Shown here: positions 44,556 through 63,134 of the stretch, one piece after another
How the letters are laid out: each line of letters opens with the position of its first letter
Numbering within the stretch: position 1 is the stretch's first letter
Assembly (NCBI GenBank): GCA_028285525.1
Contig: JANQOZ010000049.1
Location: forward strand, 1 to 64,000
DNA: 64,000 bases
Direction of reading: 5' to 3'
Origin: Lysobacterales bacterium
Lineage (GTDB): Bacteria; Pseudomonadota; Gammaproteobacteria; Xanthomonadales; SZUA-38
Notes under the pieces: model-generated
What the model was told of the DNA's origin: nothing
Database searches by the model: none
What the model saw: only the letters and a program-made list of their open reading frames with translations
Made by a program: the position numbers and the translations under genes

Positions 44556-44631
44556 AACAGTGTGTCCTGTGTTTGACGGGGCACATCGTCCAACGGCATG
44601 GGAGCGGTGTCTACGACAGATACCCGCCATT

Positions 44632-44719
44632 AGTTAGCGGCGGCCGCTCATCCATTCGCTACCTGACACGACTTTCCAGAACTCAAGCCGCCTTTGCTGC
44701 TGACAAAAAACTGGCACAT
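44632..44719 (+). repeat. Direct repeat, copy 1 (GCGGCCGCTCATCCATTCGC core)
   Basis: A 26-bp exact core (44637-44662) plus AGTT upstream and CTGACAnAnAAnTGGCACAT downstream (to 44719) matches 58469-58556 in the same orientation at constant spacing. It lies upstream of the XRE gene. The inner part contains the GCGGCCGC palindrome. Confidence 0.65.
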
Positions 44720-52066: not shown

Positions 52067-52978
52067 GTGTCATCGGATGCCATTGCCACCCGCGGATTAA
52101 ATCGCCGTTTTGGATCGCTTACTGCCCTTAAGAGCCTCGACATGAACGTCGCTCGTGGCAGTTTCTGCGGTTTGCTCGGACCCAGTGGTGCAGGCAAGAC
52201 AACCACCATCAAAATGCTTCTAGGACTACTGAAACCCAACTCCGGCGAAGGAACCGTCGCTGGAACGCCGCTCGGCGCTATTGACCACCGGTTTTTTCAG
52301 CGTGTGAGCTACTTGGCAGACCGACCTGCACTCCCAGGCTCAATGCGTGTTGCTGACTACCTTTCATACCTGAGGCCGTTCTATGAGCGCTGGGATACGG
52401 CGTTGGAGCAGGAGTTGATCCGGCTGGTGGACCTGCCGGTGAAGCCCAAAATCAAAACACTGTCGAAGGGGAACCAGCTGAAGGCGGGCCTGGTATCGCG
52501 ATTGGCCTGCCGTCCCGAGGTCCTTGTTCTGGATGAACCCTTTTCCGGCATTGACGTGGCTGCTCGGGACCAGCTCATAGAGAGTCTTTTGAAACAGTCC
52601 TCTATGGGAAGCTTGACAGTGCTAATCAGTTCTCACGACCTTGACGAGATCGAACGCCTGGTGGATCAAGTCGTCATGCTGCGCAATGGCGAGCAGTGTT
52701 TGAACGAGAGCACCGATCGACTGCTGGACCGGTTTCGCCAAATCACGATCACCGGTGATCCGGCTATGCCAGACCCGCTCACACAGCAGGGCTGGCTAAC
52801 ACGGGAATTGAATGGCCGCACCTTCGGCGGTGTGTTTACCGAATATCGATCGCATGAGACCGAAAAGGCTTTAGGCGAAAACTTCTTGCGTGTTGATGAC
52901 ATCAATGTTGCGCCGATGTCGTTGAGGTCGGTGATAGCGTCCATGTCGTCAGCTCCGACGCAGCAGGTGTCATCATGA
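52067..52978 (+). CDS. ABC transporter ATP-binding protein
   Basis: 303 residues, GTG start with GAGGAG upstream. Walker A G-P-S-G-A-G-K-T, signature loop L-S-K-G-N-Q-L-K-A-G-L, Walker B V-L-V-L-D-E-P-F-S-G-I-D and switch His in I-S-S-H-D-L-D-E-I are all present. It powers export or regulates signalling with the following membrane protein. Of the CcmA/YtrB (YhaQ-like) type. The stop overlaps the next start (ATGA). Confidence 0.95.
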   Translation: MSSDAIATRGLNRRFGSLTALKSLDMNVARGSFCGLLGPSGAGKTTTIKMLLGLLKPNSGEGTVAGTPLGAIDHRFFQRVSYLADRPALPGSMRVADYLSYLRPFYERWDTALEQELIRLVDLPVKPKIKTLSKGNQLKAGLVSRLACRPEVLVLDEPFSGIDVAARDQLIESLLKQSSMGSLTVLISSHDLDEIERLVDQVVMLRNGEQCLNESTDRLLDRFRQITITGDPAMPDPLTQQGWLTRELNGRTFGGVFTEYRSHETEKALGENFLRVDDINVAPMSLRSVIASMSSAPTQQVSS

Positions 52979-58386: not shown

Positions 58387-58431
58387 TGGTGCCGGAGCGC
58401 AGACCCGAACTGCGGACCAACGCATTACGAA
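58387..58431 (-). repeat. tRNA-Thr 3' fragment (possible attachment-site copy)
   Basis: 45 bp matching the 3' half of the tRNA-Thr gene at 63059-63134, from the anticodon loop through the CCA end, with 2 mismatches (43/45). It lies in the same orientation, and weak similarity (ATTAA before the CCA end) extends a few bases beyond. Direct duplication of a tRNA 3' end is the usual footprint of integrase-driven insertion at that tRNA. Confidence 0.8.
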
Positions 58432-58468
58432 ATGTGCCTGATGGAGAAACGCGAGTTAAACCTCAATA

Positions 58469-58556
58469 AGTTGGCGGCGGCCGCTCATCCATTCGCTACT
58501 TGAAACAACGCAGAAGAACGCGACAAAACCGCCGCTCTGACACAGAATTGGCACAT
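58469..58556 (+). repeat. Direct repeat, copy 2 (GCGGCCGCTCATCCATTCGC core)
   Basis: Matches 44632-44719 with a 26-bp exact core (58474-58499) and the TGGCACAT end at the same distance. It lies between the tRNA fragment and the FG-GAP gene, 84 bp before its ATG. Confidence 0.65.
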
Positions 58557-60982: not shown

Positions 60983-61133
60983 CCGTGTCCTGCGGTAAAC
61001 CGCTTCGGGCTCTGCCCCATCAGTTCAGACGATTGCGTAAAGGGTCCTGCATGAAATTCCTGCAGGAGCAGAAGGAGCTTAGTGCTTCGTGACAATTCGG
61101 TGTACCGTGCCGACTGCGTTTTGGAAAAACGAC

Positions 61134-62861
61134 ATGAGCCTTCTTAGTGCCGCAACCTCGATCGCAATGACATTAATCAAGTCTATTGTGCTATTCGTTG
61201 CTCTCGCTTCCGTATCAGCGTCTTCGGCTGACGAGTTTCCCGTCGAGTGGCCAAGTTATCCAACTCACTCTGACGAATTCCGCGTCGACAGCGCGTTGGG
61301 CCGCAACGGTGGTCTGACCAACACAGTTCCCGACGTCATCGGGCCAGTCGATGGAAGCGCCAGGCTAACCATCTTCACGGAGGGCAATCAATATCCGGTG
61401 CTGCTCCCCCTGACGCTTCAGGCGTTTCCGGCGTTTTGCGCTGCTTCGCGCCAGTGTGACCTATCCGCCGATGAAATTCTGATCGTAACTTTGCCCCAGG
61501 TGATGATCACAAACGGCATCGAGCGAGGGGGATTTCGGTTCGGCAACATGACGCTCCCAGTGGCGCCTGATGGAGCAGTTTTCCCCGATATCGTTATGCT
61601 CGGGCACGGCCCAATGGCCCGTCTTGAGGAACAGAACTTACTCAGGACAACCCCACGACTTCTGGCTCGACACCGGGGAATGGGACTTCTGGTTGACCGA
61701 ACGTATGTTAAACAAGCTGAGGATTTGGAGGCTCTTGCCGCCTCCGATTTGAGCTTCGTGATAGCAACGCCTTTTGAACGTGGCGCACGGAAGCAATACA
61801 TCGCTACGCTCGATGAGCTGCTGGGAGTCGAACGAACGGCGTCGTTGCTGTCGCGCGAAATCCAGGATTTCCCAGGACGCCTGGCGATTCAGCATAGAGA
61901 TATTCCTTATGCCGTGATGAACCGCATCGCGCCGGTGGGACTGATCTTTGGGCATCTTGCACGGTTTTACGCTGAACGTTCGCCTGAGAGGCTTGCCTAC
62001 GTCGAGATTCCTGAGGCGGCCGCCTTCGGCAGCGATATCACGGTCGCCACAACCCGCCGGCAACGCGGCGATGTCGCGCTGACAAGCGTCTTCCTGGAGT
62101 TCCTCTTCGAGCGTTCGTCCGAAGCCTATGAAGCGGGCGGCTTCGCGCGGACCGATTCATTCGCCTTTGGACAGGAAATGGAGGACGAGGCGTCGACCGA
62201 AGGCTACTGGTTAGAAACTATCGGTAGTCGAGAGCAGATGCTGTCCGGCGGCGATCTCTCGGCAGCCTATCGTCTGTCAGATCTGAACGTAGATGAACTG
62301 AGTGTTGCCGTAGGACCGGCTGCCGGTCTCGACGGTGAGATCACCGTCTACAACGGCGAGGTGTTCGTCTCGCGCATCAGGCGCACAGGTCAGCTTGTTC
62401 AGGCCGATCTGTCCACCGGCGGGCCGTTCATCGCTTATGGCGCAACCACAGCCTGGCGCGAAGTAGACGTGCCGATGCCACTAAGCAGCACAAAAGAACT
62501 GGAAGACTGGCTCGGACAGTCACTCGAATCCCTGGGGCTCGATCCAGAGAAAGGCTTTCCATTTCGCATCGAGGGTGAGGTGGCAGAGCTGACATATCAC
62601 GTTCTAAAGCGACCCCGGCATGCCAATGCACACACCCACAGGTCGCATCACAAGGCAAAGGTGAGTTTTCAAGAAAACAACCAGCAAGTTCGAATAGCCG
62701 GTGTGTGGGTTGCTAGCCAAAACGTGGGCGTAGTCACCCACCCAGGAGAAAGAACCCACCTGCACGTCATCGTTGATCACGGGCAAGGTGCTGGCCACGT
62801 CGATGCGCTTGAGCTGGAGCCTGGCTTTCGACTTTTTGTGCCTCAATCGACCGCAGAGTAG
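61134..62861 (+). CDS. Periplasmic-binding-like protein fused to acetolactate-decarboxylase-like domain
   Basis: 575 residues from ATG 61134 (alternative ATG 61167), with a signal peptide (SIVLFVALASVSASSADE). Residues about 50-370 resemble a type-2 periplasmic binding protein (ARLTIFTEGNQYPVLLPLTL, MLGHGPMARLEEQN, a hinge and lobe with VAVG-type strands). Residues about 400-575 match alpha-acetolactate decarboxylase (BudA): L-D-G-E-I-T-V-Y-N-G-E-V, AELTYHVLKRP, VVTHPGERTHLHVIVDHG, with Zn-ligand pattern H-L-H...G-H-V-D. In BudA this zinc enzyme is cytosolic and makes acetoin; here it is apparently exported and fused, so a new role is likely. Decarboxylase activity is unproved. Confidence 0.75.
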   Translation: MSLLSAATSIAMTLIKSIVLFVALASVSASSADEFPVEWPSYPTHSDEFRVDSALGRNGGLTNTVPDVIGPVDGSARLTIFTEGNQYPVLLPLTLQAFPAFCAASRQCDLSADEILIVTLPQVMITNGIERGGFRFGNMTLPVAPDGAVFPDIVMLGHGPMARLEEQNLLRTTPRLLARHRGMGLLVDRTYVKQAEDLEALAASDLSFVIATPFERGARKQYIATLDELLGVERTASLLSREIQDFPGRLAIQHRDIPYAVMNRIAPVGLIFGHLARFYAERSPERLAYVEIPEAAAFGSDITVATTRRQRGDVALTSVFLEFLFERSSEAYEAGGFARTDSFAFGQEMEDEASTEGYWLETIGSREQMLSGGDLSAAYRLSDLNVDELSVAVGPAAGLDGEITVYNGEVFVSRIRRTGQLVQADLSTGGPFIAYGATTAWREVDVPMPLSSTKELEDWLGQSLESLGLDPEKGFPFRIEGEVAELTYHVLKRPRHANAHTHRSHHKAKVSFQENNQQVRIAGVWVASQNVGVVTHPGERTHLHVIVDHGQGAGHVDALELEPGFRLFVPQSTAE

Positions 62862-63058
62862 CGGATAAGACGCTGGCTGCGTATCTCGCTGTCAGAGTTC
62901 GGGTTCGTCCGCCCTATCTCAATTTGCAGCCAGTCGTCTTGGCAGGACCACCGAACTGCATTCAAATCCCCAGGCCTATAATAGGCACAAAGGGAATCAG
63001 GAGACCTCAGCAGTTTAAGCTTTAGCGTGCGTAAACCACTGAATCAGAACCATTAAAA

Positions 63059-63134
<76 letters not shown>

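Follow-up and report, generated by a model that had tools for sequence, protein, structure and literature searches.

A rare fusion of a binding-protein-like domain and a divergent BudA-fold domain, predicted to be exported, in a Lysobacterales bacterium

Introduction

A single open reading frame of a Lysobacterales bacterium joins a domain resembling periplasmic substrate-binding proteins (SBP_bac_11) to a divergent domain of the BudA (acetolactate decarboxylase) fold, and this is a genuine, rare domain combination, not merely a decarboxylase that has changed location. A single genome was found to carry the fusion, and a literature search retrieved no description of an SBP_bac_11/BudA-like fusion. 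Of several possible functions, we favour, with about as much confidence as doubt, an orphan binding domain of the periplasm linked to a metal domain of the BudA fold, which has altered chemistry and is probably not an acetolactate decarboxylase.

Results and Discussion

The fusion gene and its N-terminal half

The gene lies on a chromosomal contig of 71 kb from a 6.2-Mb genome in 125 contigs; the analysed stretch of 64,000 nucleotides is referred to as the window. Its frame runs from ATG to TAG with zero internal stops, although a GTG at 61089 and an ATG at 61167 are possible other starts. The product is divided as follows.

61134–62861, + strand: fusion gene, 575 aa (uninterrupted frame on a single contig)
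61134–61232, + strand: putative Sec signal peptide, residues 1–33 (approximate; by-eye reading of the translation)
61233–62180, + strand: substrate-binding-protein-like half (SBP_bac_11), about residues 34–349 (Pfam match at 61584–62120; stand-alone homologues)
62181–62858, + strand: divergent BudA-fold half, about residues 350–575 (Pfam match at 62310–62819; hhalign)

By eye, the hydrophobic leader is of Sec type and ends ...KSIVLFVALASVSASSA/DEF (SASSA/DEF), and the protein is predicted to be exported. AlphaFold2, run on the full protein with two close homologues of the N-terminal half in the input, gave a pLDDT of 35. The original prediction, made from the letters of the DNA, had placed a gene with a signal peptide and two domain-like halves at 61134–62861; the coordinates, from the ATG at 61134 to the TAG ending at 62861, and the two halves were confirmed, both Pfam matches lying above the gathering cut-off (25 bits for PF13531 as well as PF03306).

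The N-terminal half, which had been described as binding-protein-like, indeed matches SBP_bac_11 (PF13531) at residues 151–329, with 29.1 bits in the full protein and 30.6 bits when the half is taken alone. The match is partial and of low score, covering profile positions 48–215 of 227. The closest homologues (L003 and L004) are stand-alone proteins with 57–58% identity across the whole half (57–60% in the best tblastn segments), and come from one Methyloceanibacter MAG and one Tateyamaria genome. Farther relatives occur on a Cupriavidus plasmid and in genomes G838 and G059, with identities to farther homologues of 31% (L011), 28% (L016) and 25% (L002); none of the homologues from these five sources carries a BudA half.

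Like proteins of the ModA/sulfate-binding type, the half thus has a Pfam match above the cut-off and stand-alone relatives in Methyloceanibacter, Tateyamaria and Cupriavidus. It differs from them in its partial, low-scoring profile match and in having no cognate ABC permease or ATPase gene adjoining it within the window, the nearest ABC ATPase gene (52067–52978) being situated about 8 kb upstream and outside the bounded segment described below. The inspected relatives look like orphans too, and no permease or ATPase genes assignable to them were seen in the loci read. A weak match of the N-half profile to the sulfate-binding proteins 5um2 (E 0.0017) and 1sbp suggests a distant likeness that we regard as a lead only. 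In G059 (L002/L017), a distant relative belongs to a cluster that also contains a DsrE-like gene and genes for cytochrome c, and that by eye looks like one for thiosulfate oxidation.

A divergent BudA-fold domain

The C-terminal half matches AAL_decarboxy (PF03306) at residues 393–562, with 40.2 bits in the full protein and 43.4 bits alone, so that the BudA-like assignment held up in the profile search. The likeness is not due to chance, since hhalign, run on the group of the C-terminal half against canonical BudAs, gave a probability of 98.7% and an E-value of 3.5e-16. Judged by its score against the NCBIfam equivalog TIGR01252 (25.9–29.2 bits), which misses the cut-off of 180.65 by about 150 bits, the domain is nevertheless not a BudA equivalog. 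Its alignment to PDB 4bt2 and to other members of the group singles out the following residues, all on the + strand.

62337–62339: Glu402, the retained counterpart of Glu65 of 4bt2
62598–62600: His489, in place of Arg145 of 4bt2
62646–62651: His505-His506, a subfamily HH motif where BudA has the 'KPY' loop
62739–62741: His536, in an added 'HP' insertion directly ahead of the ligand motif
62757–62765: His542-x-His544, aligned to the metal ligands His194 and His196 of 4bt2
62796–62798: His555 (in Gly554-His555), aligned to the metal ligand His207 of 4bt2

The H-L-H and G-H pattern noticed originally thus coincides with the metal ligands of 4bt2, and the domain has in common with BudA/AlsD (PF03306, TIGR01252; PDB 4bt2, 6j3d, 5xne) the fold, as judged by profile, the His triad and the equivalent of Glu65. 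Glu65 and Arg145 (4bt2 numbering) we take to be active-site residues of BudA. The Arg145 position is occupied by His in the fusion and in a sister protein from Acinetobacter, while all seven canonical BudAs aligned have Arg. The HH motif is likewise common to the Acinetobacter protein and absent from all seven, and the HP insertion recurs in the Acinetobacter protein and in a Variovorax remnant. The domain also stops just past the last strand and lacks the C-terminal tail of canonical BudAs, which presumably bears the active-site Glu253. A frameshift was considered as the cause of this short C-terminus and rejected, because the frames downstream of the stop codon contain no BudA tail. Further differences from BudA/AlsD are the score far under the equivalog cut-off and the attachment to a binding protein.

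Export, on the other hand, is ordinary for BudA-type proteins; what is unusual is the fusion together with the divergent catalytic site. The original prediction had contrasted a fused, exported form with BudA enzymes that are cytosolic. The part concerning the fusion stands, as the fusion is rare, but the part concerning export is not supported, as BudAs of canonical type carry what by eye are leader peptides in other Gammaproteobacteria (L009, L020 and L021) and a lipoprotein leader in another proteobacterial genome (L013). Three BudAs with apparent leaders pass TIGR01252 (181.8–254.7 bits against 180.65). Export of some BudA/AlsD members is a further likeness to the fusion, for which export is predicted.

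A rare sister group

The best relative of the C-terminal half is WP_099339756.1, a stand-alone protein encoded on a plasmid of Acinetobacter sp. LoGeW2-3 (L012:4902-5651). It shares with the fusion the divergent residue pattern and the short C-terminus, but is only 28% identical, has its own leader peptide and is without a binding-protein half. The two group together in a small tree at 0.999 support. When the Acinetobacter protein was searched against 369 genomes of the class, the C-terminal half of the fusion was the best match (E 3.6e-21), the others reaching 1e-5 to 1e-6. On these sequence comparisons, the two form a rare sister group. The Acinetobacter protein scores 44.7 bits against TIGR01252, again under the cut-off of 180.65. 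Its annotation as 'acetolactate decarboxylase', despite the missing Arg145 and C-terminal tail, is probably wrong.

An unannotated 51-residue remnant of the divergent group, with the HP...H-x-H end present, was noticed on plasmid 3 of Variovorax sp. WDL1 (L022:2989-3144), where it overlaps an annotated HTH gene on the opposite strand and adjoins genes for a copper-translocating ATPase and a DUF411 protein. With one complete sister and one such remnant known, the 'conserved' pattern rests on two or three sequences.

PF03306 is present in two of 299 genomes of the order, the source genome included. A search of 398 sampled genomes of the phylum with the C-half profile gave one canonical-type BudA, and the same sample yielded one distant relative of the N-terminal half, too few to enrich either half. 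There were no matches when viral contigs were scanned with the fusion, each half and a canonical BudA, nor in the phages scanned or the small class to which G641 belongs, and no match to anti-phage defence was found.

Possible functions

We propose that a Sec-exported two-domain protein arose by fusion of an orphan solute-binding protein, distantly of the sulfate/molybdate-binding kind, with a BudA-fold domain. The C-terminal half would bind one divalent metal through His542, His544 and His555, as the kept triad suggests, with Glu402 nearby. It would probably carry out metal-dependent chemistry in the periplasm, the substrate being, at a guess, a small oxo- or hydroxy-acid, and the N-terminal half might, again as a guess, retain or provide a small anion as ligand. 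Acetolactate decarboxylation is probably not its reaction, because Arg145 is replaced by His489, the tail is absent and new histidines (505, 506 and 536) are shared with the sister protein. The original prediction had offered two options, binding of a 2-oxo/acetolactate-type ligand outside the membrane or use of the fold for another chemistry. The latter fits better, since a His aligns with the catalytic Arg, the protein has no C-terminal tail and its score falls so far short of the equivalog cut-off. No gene that would name a substrate occurs in the neighbourhood of the fusion gene.

A bolder version of this proposal, which we regard as speculative, is that the C-terminal half and its Acinetobacter relative constitute a new subfamily of BudA-fold enzymes with a rebuilt metal site, acting on a non-acetolactate substrate that the periplasmic binding half would deliver in cis. 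Exported fusions of chorismate mutase with cyclohexadienyl dehydratase (CM-CDT), rare proteins of beta- and gamma-Proteobacteria, are comparable in combining a domain derived from a binding protein with a small enzyme domain, but domains and chemistry are unrelated, and in CM-CDT it is the binding-protein fold that acts as the enzyme (PMC10520331). As tethering gave no catalytic benefit in that case (PMC10520331), a functional gain from tethering should not be assumed here.

It is possible, although unlikely, that the C-terminal half has no enzymatic role and is a periplasmic metal-binding or metal-buffering domain, in which a BudA fold has been supplied with extra histidines. The added HH motif and the insertion His beside the kept triad would suit such a role, as would the copper-related neighbours of the Variovorax copy, but that copy is a truncated remnant and its neighbourhood may therefore mean nothing. 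Furthermore, the Acinetobacter copy lies near ammonium/glutamine-related genes and IS elements, the 35 kb read there contains no listed gene for metal resistance, and the neighbours of the fusion gene in the window are not metal genes.

We consider it quite unlikely that the protein works outside the membrane as an acetolactate decarboxylase (or on a closely related 2-hydroxy-3-oxo acid), tethered to a substrate-capturing binding protein. Such an enzyme would explain why the metal triad and the Glu65 equivalent are kept and the Pfam score exceeds its cut-off, and canonical BudAs with leader peptides provide a precedent. It is difficult to reconcile with 29 bits where an equivalog requires 180.65, and with the loss of Arg145 and of the C-terminal tail, which the sister protein has undergone as well.

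Genomic setting and origin of the fusion

The gene lies between a tRNA gene and a partial copy of it.

63059–63134, − strand: tRNA-Thr (CGT), presumed insertion site (ARAGORN; L007:11060-11135)
58387–58431, + strand: direct repeat of 45 bp that matches the 3' end of tRNA-Thr with 2 mismatches, presumed boundary of the inserted segment
58640–60982, + strand: gene for an FG-GAP repeat protein in the same bounded segment (Pfam FG-GAP, 7 stretches)

The repeat pair (58387–58431 and 63059–63103) bounds a segment of about 4.7 kb that holds the fusion gene. A congeneric genome (G001) is 93% identical downstream with gene order kept, but similarity stops at window position 62980, and at the same tRNA this genome has a gene for a phage-type integrase (L025:2913-4010) in place of the segment. 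FG-GAP relatives are present in that genome, while no homologue of the fusion is. As the tRNA-Thr gene and the copy of its 3' end bound the segment, and the congeneric genome differs there, the fusion gene seems to belong to accessory DNA that occupies an insertion site in a tRNA gene. The segment presumably arrived by insertion at tRNA-Thr; no integrase gene was found within the segment itself.

A short dispersed repeat (GCGGCGGCCGCTCATCCATTCGCTAC...) was observed upstream of the FG-GAP gene (58463–58510) and at 44629–44719. It recurs elsewhere in the source genome and in G001, and by eye does not fit the core pattern of integron attC sites.

A setting of this kind might suggest that two accessory genes were joined by accident on a decaying inserted segment, leaving a degenerate fusion without function. 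The degenerate tRNA repeat at its flank, the occurrence in one genome only and the absence from the congeneric genome are in line with this, and as a single genome carries the fusion, the combination may not be under selection and may be recent and non-functional. We nevertheless regard degeneration as improbable, as the frame is intact across 1.7 kb, both halves show a coding-type G+C pattern and the ligand residues are intact.

The two close stand-alone homologues of the N-terminal half end at most a few residues away from position 349, where the BudA-like half starts, and G+C by codon position is alike in both halves; on this evidence, an in-frame gene fusion at the end of a domain is much likelier than an assembly join. 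That an assembly artefact joined two genes, the objection foreseen with the original prediction, might be argued from a single genome in so many contigs, but is extremely unlikely given a join that is in frame at a natural domain end, the similar base composition of both halves, and a contig that runs on to tRNA-Thr and to downstream genes found in the same order in the congeneric genome.

Significance

Automatic annotation names the Acinetobacter sister an acetolactate decarboxylase even though catalytic features of this enzyme have been lost from it. To our knowledge, essentially one reaction has been assigned to the BudA fold, and a subfamily in which the metal site has changed would therefore provide a handle on new chemistry performed on this fold. 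The fusion in turn suggests a type of partner for such a BudA-fold domain, namely a periplasmic binder.
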